Source: Gordius sp. MW1 (taxonomy: Eukaryota > Nematomorpha > Gordioida > Gordea > Gordiidae). From it: a stretch of DNA of 64,000 bases. The position numbers were made by a program, and so were the translations under genes. This document shows, piece by piece, positions 1,068-57,639 of this stretch (its first letter is position 1; each line of letters opens with the position of its first letter). The stretch covers positions 1,116,001-1,180,000 of the forward strand of contig OZ038528.1 of the NCBI GenBank assembly GCA_964036665.1, read 5' to 3'. Below the pieces are notes generated by a model that saw only the letters and a program-made list of their open reading frames with translations, was not told the origin of the DNA and did no database searches.

Positions 1068-5943
<4,876 letters not shown>

Positions 5944-20568: not shown

Positions 20569-23500
20569 CTAGTTTTTTGAAGTAATTTTCATTCGGAAAG
20601 GGTTACTAGTCATGGTTACAATTTCCGAGAGGGACATGTTTTTTTTCTTCAAAACGGCCAAAAAACTTCTCAGTTGTGGCATAGAAGGGACAGGTTGTTT
20701 GAGTCTTTTAATATTTTCCATTATCGCTTTAGGTTTGATTCCAAGGTAAAACATTTTGCAAATTTCCTTTTTCACGGGATCCTTAATGTTTGACAATTTT
20801 GTGGGCAATATCATCTCATGAGAGTGTTGCGCCGTACTGGCATACATTATAACCTTTTTCGTCATGTATTCGTTTAATAGATAACACCGGGCTTGGCATT
20901 GAGGTCCACGGTATTTTACACACTTGCACCTAAATAAATGTGACTAGTGTTGTAAAAACAGCTGGGATTTGTTTGGTCGACATTTGGTTTAACTAAGACC
21001 AACAATTGATTGGTTGTTTTTCATATTTCGACTAAGCCTAGAGGTCGACAAAGAAAAATAGACCACAAAAACGTTGCTGTTTATGTTTAGTCGACTAAAG
21101 CCAAAGGTCGACCAAACAAAACCCAGCCGTTTTTACAACACTATAAATGACAACGTTTCTACGCTTAAAGTACCGGTAATAAATTTTTTGGCCTCGTTCA
21201 GTTTCATTCTTATACCAATAGCCCCATACGTTTTCGGCGTTTAAAGCTTCTTTAGCCTCTGCTTCGGTATCATAAATGGCTTTCTGACGCCATTCAATCG
21301 ATTTATATTCGCGTCTCTTCTTTTTCTGCCTACTTGATATTCCTTTCCCTTCCTCTGAGTCTGATATGCAAGAAAATTCATAAAATTAATTGACCCGAAC
21401 CTTCTCATACACTCAAAAAAATCTACCTTTTTTTGACTAATGCCCTACCAGAAATAAAATAATAATATAATGGTCAGATTGGGTGTGGATCAATATCGAC
21501 TGTAAATATCTATGAGTGAATTATTTTTGTATTTGATAAATTAGACAATATAAGCTAATAAAAATACAATTTCCCTCACACCAAATTGACAAAAAATGTA
21601 TTAACATAAACATTTATATAATTCAAGTTCGCTTTAAGTGGTCCTGTAGTCCATGGGCTAATATTACTCACTAGTGTGCAGGGCTTCGGTAAAGTAGGCT
21701 TGAGCTTCTAAAATAACGGTAAAATTAAAACGGTTTAATGAACTTTACCGGGACTGAAAATTCTGTAAGAATCCCACAAGGACGGCTGAATTTTAGGCGC
21801 TATAACGTTAGGTTCCAAAATAGATTTTTCAATCCGAAGTTTTTCCACATCTAACAAAATTAAATTAAAAATAACAAATTCGGGAAATTTAAAGCAGTTT
21901 ACTTGATTTAGACAGCATATGATTTTCTTCCAACTTTACCAACACAGTTTCTAAAGCATTTATCAAGCAGTTTTACAAATAAGTAGTATACCTTTGGTAA
22001 CAGGATCATAACAAAGGGGCTGTTCACAAATATCTCCCACTCCAATGTCCATACCTATGTAATTTCAATTAAAAAAACACGTTAAAAATAAACTACTCGT
22101 AGTGCCCGCCAATTTGTGGGCTTTCATGTCGGCCTTCAGCTCATCCAAAAATTTCATGCAAGCATCAAATTTAGCATCGTCGAGTTCACTAGCGATAGTA
22201 GCCAATTCCGTCAACTTATTACTAAAGACTTCATGTTTTTGACTTTTCGTCAGTTCGACCTTGATCGCCTTTAAATCGGACCCATCATTAAGGGGTAGTG
22301 CCGATTGAGTAAAGTCGGCCACTGAGGTATTAGTTTCAATGGATTTGGACCATCTTTCGTGGCAAAGTGCGGGGTAGAACAGAGGCAGCTGAAGCGTTTC
22401 CCTAAGCTTGAAAATGTGCGAACATGGTAGGAGAACGGAAGAAAAAAAATCGCATGTACAGTTGGTCGGTGTAATAGCCGAGGCGATTTCGGGTGCGAGG
22501 GCGATGATATCTTTGGAGGCTCGGATTTGTTGAGAAACTATTTTAAAGGCGAAAGGAGTCAGCATTTCGTTAAAATGGCTTTCGGGAGTCCTGAGCAAAG
22601 TTGACGAGTTGCCACAGCATTTATCGTTCCATTTGGCTACATTAGTCTCAAGCTGCCCCGAGCTCATGCAAAAAGTGTAATTCTTCCAAAATTCGTTCAC
22701 GGACGCGAATCTTTTGTACAGCGCGGCCGTTATGCAGTTGTAACTTTCCCCCTTCCCGCTCGTAAAATTTAATCGGCAAGCGAGGGTCCGTTTAAAGGCG
22801 AAAGACCAATCCTCTCGCGCACCATGCCAGGTCTGGTCGAAATGAGTGAGTACGGTGGGAAAATTGAGTCTTGCTAGCATGGCGTATGTTTGATCGTAGT
22901 GCGAAGGACTTTTGGAATAAAGCATGGATTTGAGGATTTTATGCACTAAGGCACATTGGGTATCGGTCAAATTCATTTTTTGTGGGCACATCTCTTTCCG
23001 GAACGTTTGATAAACGTAAGCAGGGCTCAATTCTAGCTTAGCGGCTGGAAAAACTTCTTCGAGCGCCTGCCTATGAGCGGTCTCGTTATCCGTTATAATG
23101 GTTAGGACCTCGGGCCAGGCCGGATTATTTTTCGCGAAAATATCGTAAAAATAACGAATTTGCGAATATTTCGTCGTTTTAACGAGGAAAGAAGCCACGA
23201 CGCGACAGGTTCCGTAATTGTCTATGCACATGAGGAGGAAGAAGGGTAATTTGTAAGCGTTCAGCTTGTAACCCGTCTCCACGCATAGGAATTGGGGGAA
23301 AGTGTTGAACAACTCTCGCTGGGCCCGGCTTTGGAAATAGATGCCAGCAAATTGCTTGCCCTCCAAGTAAACTTCTATCACGCTCTTGCCCCCCTCGTGG
23401 CCGCATAAAGTGTCAATGGCGTTTATGAGATCTTTTTTGTCCACGTTATTCCGCAAGTTAGCTCGCAAATTGTGCAAATCTTTAAGGAGAACGACCTTTC

Positions 23501-24830
23501 CGTTTTGCATGAGCAAGGATTGCAATTTCATAACGTTCCCATCCGTATCGAAACCTTCTTTGGCCATGGCAACCTCGGATTCTGTCATCTTACGTTGACG
23601 CGGTAACAGCATATACGATTCTTCGCCTGTGAGTAGGGACACATTATTTAATTTACTTAAAATAACGGCTTATATGGTTTTATTTAACATATTTCAAATG
23701 AAATAAAAAACTCAAATTTTAATGTCGTCATGGTGAAAAGTTTGAGATAACATTTGTTTATTTTTTTTAACTGAGTTGCAGTTTATTAGGGCGATTTTAT
23801 ATGCAGTAAACCCATTGACACTGAATTCGTATCACTTTCACTATAAAGTTAGTGTTAGGCCACAACCCTAAACGTTTTGGACGATAAAGGTACGTTGTAA
23901 AATGACAAAATTAATGTCGCACTTTACTTGCAGAAACTAAAATATCATAGGCACATGGTAAGGTACCACGTTTAAGAAAACTAAATTATATTAATTTGGG
24001 ATAAAGATCGTCAAACGTTATTATCTATCTAAATCCATTATTTCAACCTAATCAAGTGTTATTACAAGCGAAACTTTTTCTCCCATACTTTGTTGTATTT
24101 TTACTTATATTCCTATTAAACTATTTTAAAGTACGAAGCAACTAAATCAGGACGACCTTTAAAAGCGATTTCAATCGCTTTTCGACAACGCTTGTGAAGC
24201 CATTATACCTGGCTATCACCCCTCTCATACATTATCACTGATGTTTTTTGGTCTCCTTTTCTTAGTCGACCTGTAGGCTTAGTCGAAATTTGAAAAACAG
24301 ACCAGAAGCGACCGTTAGCCTTAGTAAACCAAAAGTCGACCAAGCAAAACCCAGCCGTTTTTACAACACTAGCTATCACTACCCTCATAAAAACTCACTG
24401 TTCTTACCCTAAAAATTCACTCTATAATTCGCATTTCAATATCAAAAAATGTGTCCTTTAAGAAAGAGCTCGGGACGTTTAACTCACTCAGGGGGTGATT
24501 ATGTTCCCAGTGGAACTTGTTCAGCACGAAGGCGTAAGAAGACTTTAAAGCTATGAGCTTGAACGAAACGAAATTTTTGCAATCGCTCTTCCTGCTCACG
24601 GCATTCCTTTGGCCCGACGAATGGCTAATAAATCTCTTACCACCCTTGATGCAACTGAACTTCAGGGATTTATATCTGAAACGCTTAATATCCTCATCCG
24701 TATATTTGTCACCACGGGGCAGCAGCAGGGAGGTTGAGATGTAATAATTCGTAAATACGCAATCTTCGTACCGCTTTTTAGCATCCAACAACTCGTCGAT
24801 CGATTTGAAGTATTTACCAAAAATTTCGTC
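20569..24830 (-). CDS. ZSWIM1/3-like MULE-derived protein with a second zinc-binding domain
   Basis: Multi-exon minus-strand gene. Exons: 24830-24421, 23626-22097, 22054-21992, 21950-21903, 21850-21749, 21707-21672, 21360 to about 21163, and 20929-20569. The five introns from 22096 to 21361 are 42, 41, 52, 41 and 311 bases, all phase 1 and mutually consistent. N-terminus: a FAR1/FLYWCH-like domain (YFKSIDELLDAKKRYEDCVF, then C..H motifs ending EHNHPL). Centre: an RNase H-like transposase core aligned to ZSWIM3 (WPEVLTIITDNE, LEEVFPAAKLELS). Then a SWIM finger CxCx9CxH (CTCDFFSSVLLPCSH). C-terminus: a second FAR1-like block (WGYWYKNETERG, KCVKYRGPQCQARCYLL, AQHSHE). It sums to roughly 910 codons. 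Two junctions are unresolved: 24421 to 23626 (phase 2 to 1, so an exon is probably missing) and 21163 to 20929. A possible start exon, MASKFNYHQFTGLSI, lies at 26085-26041. No terminal repeats were seen, so a domesticated host gene is likelier than a live transposon. Confidence 0.8.
20947..21141. repeat. MITE-B copy inside the ZSWIM-like gene
   Basis: Flanked by TA on each side (20945-20946 and 21142-21143); GTGTTGTAAAAACAGCTGGG to CCAGCCGTTTTTACAACAC. It fills most of the last intron, about 20 bases from the end of one exon and 17 from the start of the next. Confidence 0.88.
24240..24369. repeat. MITE-B, left end missing, in a ZSWIM-like intron
   Basis: The right arm is intact (AAGTCGACCAAGCAAAACCC, then CAGCCGTTTTTACAACAC, then TA). 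The centre has the CTTAGTCGACCTGTAGGCTT block shared with the 26356 and 59575 copies. The left tip is lost. Confidence 0.78.
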
Positions 24831-29390: not shown

Positions 29391-30488
29391 TTTTTTGTTT
29401 TTAATAGTTTTATGACACCTTAACCCACTAATTTTCATTTGAATTATTGTATACTAAAAATGTCAAGACAAATGCCACCAGAGTAAACAAAAATATTTTT
29501 TAATAATTTTATGACATTTTAATCGATAATAATGGTTAAAATAATATTAAGTAGTTTTTATGTAGATATACTAAAATTATGATCAAATAAGTGTTATATG
29601 CCAACTGCCTATAGTACGCTATAAATAGTGCCCTGCACAAGTCGGACTAGGACCAAAAATTAGAATTTAATCGGGCCTCGGGCTCGGATCGGGTCCGATA
29701 GGTCGGCTCGATCACGGCCCTTAACAAAATCTCGCTAAAAGAGTTTACCAAATTTTTAATATACAGCAAACCCGTACTTGGAGGTTCGTGAAGAGTGCCA
29801 ATTTTTTATAAAGAACTTAATAGCTCGCATCCCTTAAAAAGATTTATTAGTGCTCTAAGACAATTGCTATTGCAAAAATAAAGAAATTAGCGCGCTGATT
29901 GGTTTCTAAATATTCTACCAACTTTTTGCTTAAATAAAAAATAGGTATTTACGCAAAGTATTATTTTAAATCTCTGGCCGACAGCTGGCCGTATTACATG
30001 AGACGCTTTCTTTATATATTTCCATTTATATACTTCACCTTTATAATGTTTCCATAGAATAAACAAAATATTAATAAAAAATGTCAATGCAGGTTTTTTT
30101 AACAAAAACGCTTCATAAATAATAGGATTCGATTTTTATAAATATCCTTTGGAATTAGTAAATATGATTTTTAAACTGCTATAATTTTAAAATTATTATC
30201 TATAATTTTTGTTACACAAACCTATAAGAGGCTTAAAACTATGTTTAAAAATTGGTGTTCCTTTATTTGTGTTTATGATCATTTAATAATGGGGTTCGCT
30301 ATACCCTACAACAATGCTCAGGATTAGGGCTGCACCGATATTGGTATCGGTATCGGTACCGATATCACGATTTTTAACGATATCGGTACCGATATTAATC
30401 GTACCAACACTTGAAACTTTTTTTACAAATATTATATTTGTTAGAGCTGTTCTATATATAATCAATAATTTTCAATCCGTTTATATAA

Positions 30489-30625
30489 ATTTCATTGTAT
30501 AAATACGGTGGATTTGGATTGATAGCGTAGGTAGAGGGAAATGGAACGCAATATTTCGGACACTTATAGTCCATCTTCAGGAAAAAAAAAAAAGGAGAAG
30601 ATGAAGTCTCAAAAAATAAAAATGA
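30489..30625. repeat. Inverted copy of the Penelope 5' end
   Basis: Near-perfect reverse complement of 33081-33218, sharing GATAGCGTAGGTAGAGGGAA and CACTTATAGTCCATCTTCAGG-type blocks with only a few differences, chiefly in the A run. Confidence 0.9.
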
Positions 30626-30889
30626 AGTAAAGTGATTATAACAACGATGATATAGATACAAAAAAAAAATTACAAAAACTGGTTATAGCGAGAAATTAAC
30701 AATAGCGATTGTAGGGATGGATGTTTTTTATAAGAATAGAGTAGATACATATGGAGATAGGAAAAAGGTACGAAAAAAGTAAATAGCTAAATAATAAGAG
30801 AAAAGGGGGAACAGAGTTATTTAATATATAAATATAATAACTGTGCTTAACAAATTATAGTTTTGAGTATTGAACGGGTAGGTAGACAT

Positions 30890-31245
30890 AGTGAATAATA
30901 TAAAAATATGTGTGGATGTATGGGTTTGTGGTAATGAAATTGGATGGTCGTTGATTTTGTTTGTTTGTTTTTTGGGCTTGACGCGGTCGATTAAAACGCT
31001 TTCTACGAAATTCCTTTGTTGTATCACGCTATATGAATGGCAGTCGAGTTATCCAATCTGCCATGTTGAATCTTTAACGATAGTTAGGCTTAGGGTACGG
31101 AGTAGGTCGCGCATTTTTGGAGCTTTGTGTCAGTGTTCTTTTTTTTGTTGTTGTTGTTGTCTCTCCAAGTCTAAAAATTGATGGTAATCGACACAGGAGA
31201 ATATATTAATTAAAATTAGAGTATTATCTGTTATGATATTATAAA
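30890..31245 (-). pseudogene. Tandem partial copy of the Penelope endonuclease end
   Basis: Same direction as, and homologous to, 31239-31600. On the minus strand it encodes NFVESVLIDRVKPKK, matching RKFVESVLIDRLKPK of the main copy. It has stop codons and indels and covers only the GIY-YIG C-terminal end. Confidence 0.8.
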
Positions 31246-33023
31246 GGTAGGTGAGGATGGGTGTGCTTGTAGCTTCGAAATTGGCCGGGTTGGTCGTTGA
31301 TTTTCGGCTTGAGGCGATCGATCAGGACGCTTTCTACGAATTTCCTTTCTTGGTTGAATCGTGCTTTGTAAAGAACGGTCGGGTTGTCCCAATCAATGCT
31401 ATGTTGATTGGTTAGCGAGTGTTCGGCCACGGCGGAGTGTGTTGCGCATCTTGTTAACGGGGCCTTGTGTTCTTGGATTCTTTGTGCTAAGGTTCTTTTA
31501 GTTTCTCCAACGTAAAATTGGTCGCAATCGGCGCAGGAGATTTTATAAATTAAATTAGAAACAAGATTTTTATCTGTAATGTTATTAATGGGCTTAATTA
31601 ATGAGAATAGGTTGGATGTGGTTTTCTGAGAAAACTTGAAATTGTCTATTTTGTGAACATGTAAAATCTTTTTGATTTCTTTTAGGAAATTATTACTAAG
31701 ATTAGTGTGAAATGGAATAGAGATATAATGATCTGTATTAGGAGTGGAGTCTACATTAGTTGACATTTTAGGGAATTTTAAAAATTTATTTTTAATGTTT
31801 GTGAGCAAATCAAGGGGATAATTTAGCTCTAAAAATCTTTGTGTTATATTATCCATTTCAATGTCTCTATCAGATTCCAGAGAGCAAGCTCTTTTAACCA
31901 TCATCCTAAAAGTGTTGATTTTAAAAGATGAGGGGGAGTGGCTGTGCCATGGTATAAATTGAGAAAAGTCAGTTGGTTTACGATAAACTGTTGTGATAAT
32001 TTTGTCATTTAGGTTGTGGAGGGTTACATCTAAAAATGGTAACTTGTTGGTTTCTATTTCCACTGTAAAGATTATCTTTTTATGAAATGAATTCAACACA
32101 TTTAAGAAGTCGTTTAAGTCAGTGGTTAGGTTATGAGGCCAAATACATAAAATATCATCAACGTATCTGGCATAAAAAGGGGGGAATAAACTGGAAGTTT
32201 GTATGTAGGATTCTAGTTCGTTAAGGAATATGTTAGAAATAATTGGAGCAAGGGGATTACCCATAGCAGTACCATCAATTTGATCATAATTAATGTTATT
32301 AAACTGAAAGTTATTTGTTGTGCAAAAATTTAATAAATCTTTAAAGATAGTTTTGGTAAAGGGGGGTTGTTGAATTTTGTCATAAAGTTTAAAGCAATAA
32401 TTTATGGCATGGTCTAGAGGAATGTTTGTAAATAGTGATTGGATGTCAAAACTTACAAGTGAAAATGAATCTGGTAAAGGGAAGCTTTTCAAGCGATTAA
32501 TCAAATCTAAAGAGTTTTTAAGAATTAAGGGTGAATCAACATATGGTTGTAAAATTGATATTAGGTACTGACTAACATTAAAGTTGTAGGAATTATATGA
32601 AGATACTATTGGTCTTAATGGAATTGAGGGTTTATGAATTTTGGGTAACCCATAAATTTGAGGAGTGCGGGAAGTGGAGGGTCTTAACTTCCAATATAAA
32701 GAAGAACTTATTATATTATTTTTAGATAAGTTTAATAAAAAGCTTTGTAGCTTTTTTGTAGGATTCTTTTTTAACTCCTTGAACAAACTATTATCTTTTA
32801 AAATATCAAGCATTTTTTTGTTATAATCTTCTGTATTCATTACTACTAGCTGTCCTCCTTTATCTGCTTTGCATATTCTTATATTACTATTAGACTTTAT
32901 TGATTTGACAATTAAAAAGGCTTCTTTTTCTTTTTTTAATTTACATTTGTCAACTTTTGAAGGACAGTCATTGTTTAAAGTATTAGAGAGAAAAGATTCT
33001 AATGAATTTTTAAATGTGTGTTG
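31239..33023 (-). CDS. Penelope-like reverse transcriptase with GIY-YIG endonuclease
   Basis: The reading frame is open from 33023 to a stop at 31239, about 594 codons; the first ATG is at 32840, but coding clearly starts upstream (RICKADKGGQLVV, the typical DKGG motif, precedes it). An upstream TGA at 33026-33024 suggests 5' damage or a missed intron. Reverse transcriptase landmarks: GLPKIHKP, LRPIVSS, FTNIPL, GTAMGNPLAPIISNI, the catalytic YARYVDDILC and a LPFLDVTL block. The C-terminal GIY-YIG nuclease has YKISCADCDQFYVGETKR, RIQEHK and an ESVLIDRLKP end. This pairing is diagnostic of Penelope-like elements. The long frame implies a fairly recent insertion, and autonomous activity cannot be excluded. 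Confidence 0.9.
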   Translation of the reverse strand, partial: QHTFKNSLESFLSNTLNNDCPSKVDKCKLKKEKEAFLIVKSIKSNSNIRICKADKGGQLVVMNTEDYNKKMLDILKDNSLFKELKKNPTKKLQSFLLNLSKNNIISSSLYWKLRPSTSRTPQIYGLPKIHKPSIPLRPIVSSYNSYNFNVSQYLISILQPYVDSPLILKNSLDLINRLKSFPLPDSFSLVSFDIQSLFTNIPLDHAINYCFKLYDKIQQPPFTKTIFKDLLNFCTTNNFQFNNINYDQIDGTAMGNPLAPIISNIFLNELESYIQTSSLFPPFYARYVDDILCIWPHNLTTDLNDFLNVLNSFHKKIIFTVEIETNKLPFLDVTLHNLNDKIITTVYRKPTDFSQFIPWHSHSPSSFKINTFRMMVKRACSLESDRDIEMDNITQRFLELNYPLDLLTNIKNKFLKFPKMSTNVDSTPNTDHYISIPFHTNLSNNFLKEIKKILHVHKIDNFKFSQKTTSNLFSLIKPINNITDKNLVSNLIYKISCADCDQFYVGETKRTLAQRIQEHKAPLTRCATHSAVAEHSLTNQHSIDWDNPTVLYKARFNQERKFVESVLIDRLKPKINDQPGQFRSYKHTHPHLPL

Positions 33024-34726
33024 TCAGGATATTTATAGTTTATTGTGTTTAAAATATTATTGAAGCTATTCAAAGTAGATTCATTTTTATTTTTTGAGAC
33101 TTCATCTTCTCCTTTTTTTTTTTTTCCTGAAGATGGACTATAAGTGTCCGAAATATTGCGTTCCATTTCCCTCTACCTACGCTATCAATCCAAATCCACC
33201 GTATTTATACAATGAAATCTGTATATCTATATTCTAATATATACTTTTTAAATTAAATTTTACTTAATTGCTCTTAAATCTAATTTATTTTTTAAATGAT
33301 TCATTCATTCTAATTTCTACCGCCACTTAATTATATTATTACGTATGTTAGTTTCATAATTACAATTTATAATATAATGTATTTATTTTTATATTATATA
33401 TTGTGTCTAATTTTTATAAGATGTAAAATATCGGTATCGGTATATTAATTTATTTAAATATCGGTAGTATCGGTATCGGTTAAAAATTTGATATCGGTGC
33501 AGCCCTACTCAGGATTGATATTTTCACAATTATTCTCGAGTTAAAAATATCTATATATTATATCCCGCTAGTACTAAATATATACTAGTAGCTTTAATGA
33601 AAATTTTCATAAAGGCTTTGATGATGGTAGATTATGTTTAAAACAATAGACTGTGTGTGTGAGTGTGAGTATGTTAGTAAGAGGAATATGCATACGCAGA
33701 GCATAGGGATACTAGAGAATAGGGATCATTGAGAGGTGGGTGGGCAGGACGTCAAATACTCTCATGAAGTGCAGTGCAATTTATTTGTATGATTGAGTAG
33801 GAAACAATATGGAGATACATACAGATAAGGAAAGTGGCTTAGGACTTGACGATGAAAAGATTGTATCAAATACGGTCCCCCTGCCATTCCCAAATTGTAT
33901 TGCAAAAATATTCATATATTTATTAATGTGAGTTTTTTTTATCAATTTTCATATTTTAGAAGTAGATTGTTATCTACGTGGTACAATGCATCCTTTTGTT
34001 TTGTTTTTCAATTATTATTTGCATACTATTTAATAAAATTAAATTTTAAATTTCATTTTTGTTAATATTAAAAAAGTATAAATAAAGTAAAATTCGATAA
34101 AAAGAAGCTATTGAAAATTAATGCCTAATGTAATGTTCACAGGACTATGTAGATAGAATTTTAATTTTCTGATCGATTTGAAGTCCCATCCAATTTATAA
34201 CTTAAAAGTGCCGGGTCATTCATATGCAGCCTTATCCTAATGCTGATCTACAAGTTTGGTTTAAAAAACTTTCTACTAATTCCTTTCTTGAGTAGGCTTA
34301 GGGGAATATTTTTTTGTTAAATGAAAGGTGCGGGGTAGTATCCTGAATAAATTGTTTTGTATAAATTTACATTTCAAAAAAGTCGGGCCGGCCTTAGGCT
34401 CGGGGGGGGGGGCCTGAGTGAAAAAAAAATTTTGGGCTTGGGCAATTTAAATAAAAAGTGTCGGGCTCTGGCCGAGCTCGAGCCCAAGAATTTCATTTTG
34501 TAGGGCTCTAGCTATATTGAAATTTGTTGAAGACCATTTTCAGTTTCAAAAAAAAACCTGCTCGATACCGGTTTATTTCAAGCAACTCAGTTCGATGCCA
34601 AGTTATTTTATATCTTACTCAACAGCAGCCATAAGCAGCTTTAATCTGCCAGTGCTGTAACCGGGTTATTAGGCAGCATGTGATCGTTGTGCTTGGTGGG
34701 AATGATAAAATTTATGTGCCTATTAC

Positions 34727-47183: not shown

Positions 47184-49665
47184 CCCATTTAGACCTACCG
47201 TCTTATTTTTCATACGCAAAATAGACCATTTTTAGTCTAAAAATTTTAATACTTAATGGCCCTTAGATATTATCATACATAGTTTTTATTGAAGCTTAAA
47301 ATGTGATCTACCTTCCTGGTGGATCATTTTTATTGTGTTTCCTTATTCAATGCCTTCTTTAACTCGTAAAAGCAAGTGTAATTCTAGAAATTCGAAAAAA
47401 CAGAACCTTCCGTTAGTATTTGTTAATAAAGTTTTATATAAACAATATTTAATTAATTTAATTTGATATATTATTAAACTATAAAAATTTCTCTTTAAAA
47501 TGATATGTTTTTTATATAAAATTTATAAGACTTTAATATTAAAATATGTCTTTAAAATTGAGTGTCGTATATATCATACCGTAGGCCTTTGAATACAGAA
47601 GAAGTGCTTACTCTATTGGAATCTAATACTACCTTATTGAGCAATGTTCAACAAATTGATCTGGCCTTGGTTACCTCCAGACTATCTTGATTCTGATAAA
47701 GATGAAATTTCAGAGGATGAAAATGAAGTTTTGATTAATGATCCTTAAAGTTAGGACCTGGGGTCCTATCAAGAAAAGCTGAAGTTTTAATAAGAGATAT
47801 AGATAATGAAGTAATTCAATTAACTACAGAAATGTTATTAGAAATTCCTATCCCAAATTATAAAAATGACAATCCTTCAAAAAACAAAAACTCTTATCTT
47901 GGAGTCCAATAAATCTTATGCCAGAAACTAATGAACATACAAAATTTAGAATTCAAAATATTAAAGAAAATGTTCCAAACATATTGACTTTTATACAAAA
48001 AGATGCCCTGACACCTTTACAAGTGTTCCAACTATTTTGGGATCCAAGTTTAATAGAGATTATATGTAGAGAAAGTGAAAAATATGCTAAATATAAGTAT
48101 AGTGATGAAACTTTTAATGTTTCATGTGATGAAATTTACAAACTGCTAGGTGTGTTGTTATTATCAGGGTATTGTAAGTTGCCACAAAAGCGACTATATT
48201 GGCAGACTCAGGCAGATGTTAATAATAGTGCCATTGTTAATTGTATGGCAAGAGATAGGTTCAATACTATTTTTAAGTATTTACACTTTTCTGATAACAA
48301 TATTAACAGGGAACTTGGAAGCATAAAAAAAGTTAATGTTTTAATGAACCATATCAACAACAATTTTGAAAAATATATTGCGCCTAATCCGATGATATAT
48401 TCTTTAGATGAGGCCATGGAGCCCTACTATGGTAGATTTCATTTGAAACAATTTATCCGTGGTAAGCCCATAAGATTTGGGTTTAAATTTTGGTGCTTGA
48501 ACAAACCCAATAGATATTGCTGTCGCTTTAAGTTATATGAAGGGCGCGAAGAAATAGAAGTCGGAGTACCCCTCGGTTCTGCGATTTTTCAAAAAGCTGG
48601 TCACAGGGTATGTCCCTCCACAAAGTCATGTATACATTGATAACTTCTTCAATTCTTTACCTTTATTGCAAGATTTGGCTAAGCAATCAATTAGACTTAC
48701 AGGTACGATACGGAGTGATAGAATCAAAAATGCACCCCTTGAAGATTTAAAAAAGGACCAAGAGGATCTTGGCGAGTCCTACAGGAAAAAAATTCAAAAA
48801 CTCAATTGTTCAGATGGAACGATAACAGCCAGGTCACACTGGCAACTAACCGGACAGATGTCCTGGCTAGCACAATAACAAAATGCAATAGATATAGCAG
48901 GTCGGCCAAGAGTCGAATTACAGTACCTCAACCCACCATTATTAGCGAGTACAATAAGGGAATGGGGGGTGTTGACCTCTTCGACCAATTTCGGGGCTCT
49001 TATCGGGTGGGCATACGATCTAAAAAATGGTATTGGCCCATAGTGCGGTTTTGCCTAAATGCTGCCGTAGTAAATTCTTGGATTTTATTTCGTGAAGTTC
49101 ATAAAGGGATTTCTTTGTTAAATTTTGTGCGAAAGATTACAATCCCATTACTATCAACTCCAATGATTCCCCGACTGAGGACGGTATATCCAAGCGGATC
49201 AGCAATGTTTATACCGAGGTTCGGTTCGATAAGCTTGAACATTGGCCTCCTAAGAACCCAACACAAAGGGGGTGTGGGGTTTGTCACAAGTCTGTGAAAT
49301 TTATATGCACAAAATGCAACGTGGGACTTCACATAAATTGTTTTCAATATCATACTTTATAACTTTTACAATATTATTTCATATTTTCTGTGATAATTTT
49401 TTATAAATGTTGAAATAAACTTTAAAACAATTTATCTCCAGCTATGCTTTTACAGAAAGTAGAGTAGTTATAGGGTTAAAAGTTCGTTTTATACAGCCAT
49501 AAAGACAACATGTCCTACCGTATGATATATACGACACCTTAAAAATGGCAGTAAACAAGTTTTTTTTTCAATTTTTTTTAATTTGTTTTATTGGTGCAAA
49601 ATCACCTAGGAATTCCAAATTTTATGAAAATCTGTCGAGGATTTCTATGGTCCGGTCTTAATGGG
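47184..49665 (+). mobile_element. Decayed piggyBac-type transposon
   Basis: Right end AATGGG is followed by TTAA (49666-49669). The left end CCCATTTAGACC mirrors the right end GGTCTTAATGGG, and is preceded by GCAA instead of TTAA. A longer internal inverted repeat lies at 47563-47586 (GTGTCGTATATATCATACCG) and 49514-49537 (complement), 24 bases with one mismatch. Ends of CCC..GGG and a TTAA target are piggyBac hallmarks. Confidence 0.82.
47585..49363 (+). pseudogene. piggyBac transposase, frame-broken
   Basis: DDE transposase of the piggyBac family. The longest piece is 47918-48640 (FQLFWDPSLIEIICRESEKY, YKLLGVLLLSGYCKLP, DRFNTIFKYLHFSD). All three catalytic aspartates are still visible: SLDEAMEPYYGRF, YIDNFFNSLPLL (about 48645, after a frameshift near 48600) and MGGVDLFDQFRGSYR (about 48960). 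Another shift near 49110 leads to a C-terminal zinc domain, CGVCHKSVKFICTKC then HINCF, at about 49273-49360. The N-terminal part (47585-47750) has stops. It is inactive as it stands. Confidence 0.88.
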
Positions 49666-56317: not shown

Positions 56318-57632
56318 TCAGTTATTGGGTCCCAGATTCGTGGGGTTTGTTTTGATAAGCTTCTTCCATCTTGACCGGGTGAGTGCCATGTCTTGACTAA
56401 TCTCTTTAGTTTTCATAACTTTATCGACTTGCCCTTTCCACGTGACACGGGGTCGTCCTCTTCCTCTCTTCCCCGGTACCTCCATGTCCAGTACTTTTCG
56501 ATTTACGTCATCCGTGCCCCTTCTTAGTATATGCCCATACCATCTTAGCCGATTTTCGTTAATCATGTCCGCCATAGGTTGAATACCCATTTTTGTCATG
56601 AGAAAGTCATTCGTCATATGGTCGAGCTTAGTATGCCCCAAGCTCCACCGTATCATTCTCATCTCTGTGGCTTGTAATAGCTTGCCTTCCGTGGTGTTTA
56701 GTGCCCATGTTTCACTTCCATATAGTAACACCGGTCTTACGATGGATTTGTAAGCTTTGCTCTTCAACCATATTGGCATTTTTTTGTCGCACATTACACC
56801 GGATATACTTCGCCATTTAAGCCATCCTTTTTGGATCCGGGCATTGACTTCTGTTGTGCAACCTCCCTCTTGATGTAGCATCGAGCCGAGGTATGTAAAC
56901 CTGTCTACTTTGGGGTACTTTAGATGGTCATCCAGCGATGGGGTGCTTGTACCGTTCATTTCCATGTATACCGTTTTTCGATCGTTGACCTTTAAACCAT
57001 ATCCAGCTAAGCGCTTCGACCACTTTTCGGCTTCTTCGAATACTTTGTCCCTTGTTTCCTCGCATAGTACTATATCATCGGCATATAGCATACACCATGG
57101 CGATGGCTTTTGAATGTCCCTCGTTATCGTGTCTATAATTATATTAAATAAAAAGGGACTTAAAGCAGATCCTTGATGTAATCCAATTTTAAACCGAAAA
57201 GATTTAGAGTCTCCAACTGTCGTCCTAACGCAAGAGTTTGAGGCTTCATAAATATTTTTCATAAGCCGTATATATGCGTCAGGAATATTTTGTTTTCTCA
57301 GGCACCACCATATTAAATCGCGGGGGACCGTGTCATAAGCTTTCTCCAAGTCGATAAAGACCATATGTAGGTCTTTCCTCTTTTCACCATACTTATCCAT
57401 TATTTGTCTTAGTGCGAAGATTGGGTCGATTGTGGATTTGCCGGCCACAAATCCAAATTGATTCGCCGATATTTCCACCTCGTTTTTCAGCCTTGTTACT
57501 AAGATCCTTTCCATAAGCTTCAAGGAGTGGCAAGTTAGCTTGATACCTCTGTAATTGCCACAGTCTTGAGGGTCTCCTTTGCCTTTAAATAAGGGTATAA
57601 TCGTGCTTGCTCTCCATTGATTAGGAATTCGG
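56318..57632 (-). pseudogene. LINE reverse transcriptase, 5'-truncated
   Basis: Open frame of 401 codons from 57523, extendable upstream in the same frame to about 57632 (PNQWRASTIIPLFKGKGDP, CGNYRGIKLTCHSLKLMERI). Reverse-transcriptase landmarks: NQFGFVAGKSTIDPIFALRQ, MVFIDLEKAYDTVPR, GLHQGSALSPFLFN and the catalytic LYADDIVLCEE, then the thumb region ending LRWYGHILRR and GRGRPRVTWK. The endonuclease is missing: similarity stops abruptly near 57640, as expected of incomplete reverse transcription. The clade looks RTE-like, but this was not tested. A decayed relative is at 13493-13720. Confidence 0.88.
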
Positions 57633-57639
57633 AGCTATG

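Follow-up and report, generated by a model that had tools for sequence, protein, structure and literature searches.

The window analysed here is a stretch of 64,000 nucleotides of a Gordius genome (C2:1116001-1180000; 212 Mb in 12 contigs were searched), and three mobile elements are stacked in it: an outer hAT-type element (29626-34510) contains an inner, non-coding hAT-type MITE (30325-33507), and this in turn contains a Penelope-like element (PLE) at about 30456-33218. As a locus, a three-layer stack of this kind is ordinary. The nest had been proposed in a preliminary description and is borne out here. Each of the layers belongs to a family with multiple copies in the genome, each shell having been queried separately. 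Elsewhere in the window, open frames at 1068-1559 and 4915-5943 together look, by eye, like the two parts of an intron-interrupted homeodomain gene, and frames at 22065-23669, 47870-49297 and 56318-57634 resemble by eye mobile elements (transposase-like, piggyBac-like, LINE-type reverse transcriptase).

The hAT-type shells and the order of insertion

The hAT superfamily is recognized by 8-bp target duplications and short inverted ends, and the inner element has both in common with MITEs of this superfamily. Its ends, TAGGGCTGCACCGATAT, match in inverted orientation at 17/17 bases, and it is flanked by CTCAGGAT at 30317-30324 and, exactly repeated (8/8), at 33508-33515; without the PLE it is about 410 bp long. 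The outer element, about 1.7 kb without its insert, starts at 29626 with TAGTGCCCTGCAC and finishes at 34510 with GTAGGGCTCTA, exactly the base positions first given for it. Its ends match as short inverted ends that are weaker than those of the inner element, and its putative 8-bp duplication, GCTATAAA (29618-29625) versus GCTATATT (34511-34518), matches at 6/8 positions in the window copy, the one copy to which this count refers. In five other printed copies the right end reads GGGCTCTA (four copies) or GGGTTGTA (L040), and the left end reads TAGAGC in two of the five, the three remaining printouts having started just inside the end. Both shells are classed as putative hAT elements on their end sequences and 8-bp duplications; in a list of their open frames of at least 60 amino acids, no transposase was seen. 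Match pieces, the window's own included, number at least 67 (left arm) and at least 50 (right arm) for the outer element, and at least 61 (right arm) and at least 44 (left arm) for the inner one.

Empty sites and uninterrupted copies, the checks suggested in the preliminary description, are both present in the genome. The site of the inner element is read once, without the inner element, in 5/5 printed outer copies, as CTCAGGAT in four and as CTCAGAAT in one, and it is empty in the outer copies L026, L030 and L032, where the matches to the left and right flanks overlap by exactly 8 bases. As L014 and L024 overlap, the 14 fetched inner loci represent 13 places in the genome, eight of which were aligned: PLE sequence is found in 0/14 loci, and 8/8 aligned copies run through the PLE site. 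In the window copy the greater part of the inner element consists of the PLE, as would be expected if it were an ancient, integral cargo of that element and were present in every copy of it. The PLE-free inner copies rule out this hardly conceivable reading, against which also stands the median identity of 97.3% between the window PLE and copies at other loci. L037 is the sole locus with a PLE match among the 14 fetched outer-element loci.

The divergence from other copies agrees with the relative age order that had been read from the nesting. Median identity is 71.2% (left arm, 10 loci) and 74.7% (right arm, 14 loci) for the outer element, 89.1% (left arm, 13 loci) and 87.8% (right arm, 11 loci) for the inner element, and 97.3% (45 loci) for the PLE; these medians come from the best-scoring fetched loci and are thus upper estimates. 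Identity therefore ranks the outer element as the oldest, then the inner one, with the PLE as the youngest, which is the order of the nest.

The Penelope-like copy in the window and its family

The window PLE is composed of two inverted arms. The long arm (30456-33079, minus strand) has a tailed 3' end at the left and is 5'-truncated at 33079; the short arm (139 nt, 33080-33218, plus strand) has an untailed 3' end at the right. The tail, of about 26 nt (30456-30481, minus strand), is present at this outer end only and is followed by the pseudo-LTR region (30482-30626, minus strand), an inverted repeat of which lies at 33080-33218; the arms are 98% complementary over 112 nt and 100% over an overlapping 45 nt. 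This copy is short of full length, as several other copies extend beyond 33079. An open frame of 594 amino acids (31239-33023, minus strand) encodes a reverse transcriptase domain (RVT_1, E 3.9e-10) and a GIY-YIG endonuclease domain (E 1.3e-6), both above the Pfam cut-offs, in agreement with the initial view of the core of the inner element; a frame read with X at stops over part of the PLE gave no Pfam match, and it is the true open frame that gave the domains. The presence of these two domains in one frame, of pseudo-LTRs, of inverted and partial-tandem copies and of a tail identifies the family as Penelope-like. A tandem repeat with 331-bp spacing (30970-31352), toward the 3' side of the body of the PLE, copies part of the endonuclease C-terminus, and its units are about 69% alike within most loci spanning the repeat.

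PLE arms lie on both strands, head to head and with their 3' ends outward, in 24 of 39 loci (the window and 38 others), and on a single strand within the stretch examined in the other 15. Apart from L042 and L052, the one-strand loci show no duplication beside the 5' end of the arm, and some of them are variants with other 3' sequences. L055 and L069 on the one hand, and L068 and L070 on the other, share other sequences in place of the usual 3' region, and all four are possibly PLE variants with different 3' ends; L068 has neither tail nor duplication. The PLE ends in L052 (C5:22865500-22868900) and L042 (C5:22878300-22882100), of which one is tailed and the other untailed, are separated by about 15 kb and have a 13-nt repeat in common, which suggests that they may be the two ends of one insertion, the roughly 10 kb of other DNA between them having been carried along or inserted afterwards.

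Target-site duplication is a property of the family, though the window copy shows it imperfectly. Of 26 insertions with both ends, 24 have an exact repeat of 12 nt or longer that ends at the start of the tail; in the two others, L061 and L081, the repeat is 5 nt and 10 nt, respectively. With L058 (12 nt) and L072 (13 nt), exact duplications of at least 12 nt are present in 26/28 insertions tested. Repeats of this length are present in 22/24 true pairs of flanks versus 1/552 pairs in which the two flanks came from different insertions. The range of 12-17 nt would be explained by a fixed 12-bp stagger with chance microhomology. At the window PLE there is no exact target duplication longer than 7 nt. 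Read against uninterrupted MITE copies, the right copy is CTGTATATCTATA (33219-33231), and the left copy, CTGTTCTATA (30447-30456), is 3 nt shorter, its last bases being ambiguous with the tail, so that the sequence fits a duplication of CTGTATATCTATA from whose left copy 3 nt were deleted. The insertion context is A-rich before and T-rich after in 8 unambiguous of 23 sites, a weak near-palindrome.

The duplications also bear on whether the two arms could be independent PLE insertions lying side by side in opposite orientation, each arm being 5'-truncated as a separate insertion would be. The same arrangement recurs at 46 listed pairs (see below), the arms abut in most two-armed loci, and a single duplication surrounds the whole in 26/28 of the insertions tested. 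For the family, recurrence and the one shared duplication refute this explanation, which was extremely improbable.

One tailed end in nearly all listed pairs

Genome-wide, the PLE 3'-region pattern identifies 265 ends (at most 2 mismatches), and the pattern that includes the tail identifies 127 (at most 3 mismatches). For pairing, 187 ends were listed, 100 of the 127 tailed ends and 87 untailed ends, the latter having a base incompatible with the tail. Among them are 46 head-to-head pairs: 26 tailed/untailed, 19 untailed/tailed, one tailed/tailed and no untailed/untailed. Exactly one tail of about 26 nt is thus present in 45/46 pairs, while about 50% would be expected if the ends were independent (binomial P about 5e-13); a count over a portion of the genome, in which the ends were defined a little differently, gave 28/29 one-tailed pairs. 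The 46 pairs draw on 92 of the 187 listed ends and include one pair with ends 7.3 kb apart, counted from the listed positions; the partners of the 95 ends that are unpaired at this stringency are presumably mutated, short or unlisted. A single tail was confirmed in sequence in 26/26 insertions with both ends, in the window copy, and in L058 and L072. This pattern refers to one family in one genome.

The tail/tail pair, L079 (C2:25682950-25683900), is flanked on one side by an inverted copy of the flanking DNA of the other side, and because its flanks are mutually inverted it looks like a later palindromic duplication. Six pairs of neighbours lie on the same strand. In tandem copies the internal pseudo-LTRs seem to carry a tail, since the ORF begins with it, and four of the six are tailed/tailed arrays whose outermost ends still have one tail, as checked in sequence for L043, which has two tandem pseudo-LTRs 3250 bp apart.

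In L058 and L072 a tailed end and a duplication are present, but the second arm ends at neither of the usual start sites. In L058 (638-3377) the end of this arm is at GTCCGAAATATTG, which lies 26 nt beyond the ATG of the open frame. A distance of 26 nt is published for the cut of the anole ribozyme (in the part of PMC11167929 used here). By the anole distance, the second end of L058 would fall where a hammerhead would cut, a single case that may be due to chance. A hammerhead-like core, CTGAAGA...GGAC...GTCCGAAA, was noticed in the pseudo-LTR by eye only. A comparison of the PLE with Rfam matched no family at E values up to 1; with the pseudo-LTR, four weak matches were obtained (E 1.4-7.6), far below gathering scores, none of them a hammerhead. 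Around the start sites, the RNA folds no better than shuffled sequences do (z 0.10, -0.40 and -0.93).

Proposed priming of the two arms, and known Penelope elements

PLEs form a separate class of retroelements whose insertion pathway is not settled. One proposal, put forward for Adineta vaga Penelope from palindromic junctions (in the portion of PMC3846280 considered), is self-priming, in which a cDNA started on the target folds back and copies part of itself into an inverted arm. It agrees with L063, L073 and L074, where the stop positions of the two arms differ by no more than about 12 nt. However, self-priming always needs a primary arm at least as long as its copy, and the tailed arm is longer in only 8/19 pairs (Wilcoxon P 0.31), neither type of arm being consistently longer; the lengths of the two arms are uncorrelated (P 0.33), arms running to the end of the reference having been entered as minimum lengths. 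Moreover, most arms stop at positions unrelated to those of their partners, and an arm copied by fold-back should presumably have the tail as well. The PLE pattern thus weighs against self-priming, which we consider unlikely; as a general source of the inverted arm it is rejected on arm lengths and unrelated stop positions.

Near-constant duplication length and a near-constant pair of end types would also fit a preformed inverted-dimer DNA with fixed ends, integrated in a transposon-like manner by a 12-bp staggered cut. However, untailed ends vary by several nucleotides, and in L058 and L072 they lie elsewhere in the element. In addition, extension primed by the target on two strands has been observed in vitro for a PLE (anole, as far as covered by the part of PMC11167929 consulted). 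Integration of such a dimer therefore appears very doubtful.

The counts of pairs and of arm lengths speak for priming on both strands, one of the two starts being obligatory and located at the tail site. The PLE endonuclease would cut both target strands about 12 bp apart, and each cut 3' end would prime its own reverse transcription of PLE RNA; the two antisense cDNAs would grow toward each other, stop independently and join 5' to 5'. One cDNA would always start at the distal (tail) site, and the second would in most cases (26/28) start about 26 nt farther upstream, other positions on the RNA being used now and then. A near-symmetric cut in the DNA may be combined with asymmetry on the RNA side. 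A stricter version, one start at each of the two sites in every insertion, is too strong, as the second arms of L058 and L072 start elsewhere. The two arms may be copied from one RNA or from two: where they overlap over a long stretch (11 cases), they differ by 0-0.73%, and in 4/11 each arm has its partner strictly as its closest arm. The arms of L065 had seemed to come from different templates (53 differences), which was wrong: with gaps excluded the differences are 8/1201, the rest being a deletion.

In conclusion, nesting and divergence show the order in which the layers were inserted, and two-strand priming in which the two starts have unequal roles and the arms are joined 5' to 5' is a probable account of the PLE family; our confidence in this mechanism is slightly lowered by L058, L072 and the loci with arms on a single strand. 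We are evenly divided on a more specific proposal, that insertion is lopsided: a staggered cut of 12 bp, close to symmetric, would prime two cDNAs, of which one would have to start at the tail site and the other, more loosely placed, would usually start 26 nt upstream. On this view the published 'optional' tail would reflect a rule of one tail per insertion and record the role in which each strand was primed. This near-strict one-tail pattern, which hints at the insertion mode of a poorly understood class of elements, and not the nest, is the part worth following: many young copies, a near-constant duplication and the one-tail rule lead to a quantitative prediction, exactly one tail-site start per event.

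The tail and the two reverse transcriptase start sites are already known from published work. The one-tail rule was not found in the PLE literature searched; older papers on Drosophila virilis Penelope, outside this search, may describe it. In the part of the anole study drawn on here (PMC11167929), the purified protein cuts and extends both strands in vitro, two adjacent reverse transcriptase start sites bound the tail, and no difference in start sites was noted between the strands, a point against the mechanism proposed here. The anole element, PAc (Penelope/Poseidon group), resembles the Gordius family in having reverse transcriptase and GIY-YIG domains, pseudo-LTRs, AT-rich targets, a short tail that falls within the beginning of the ORF, and reverse transcription starts at both borders of the tail (same part of PMC11167929). 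As reported there, the tail is optional in anole and found in a fraction of copies, whereas here it is present at exactly one outer end in 45/46 listed pairs; set against PAc, the Gordius family also shows inverted pairs at 24/39 loci and duplications of at least 12 nt in 26/28 insertions tested. In Adineta vaga, a tail is optionally present at one of the inverted pseudo-LTRs and self-priming is discussed; there are few copies, duplications are missing from some of them, and self-priming was the reading given to the inverted junction (in the portion of PMC3846280 considered), whereas in the Gordius family the lengths of the arms argue against this reading.
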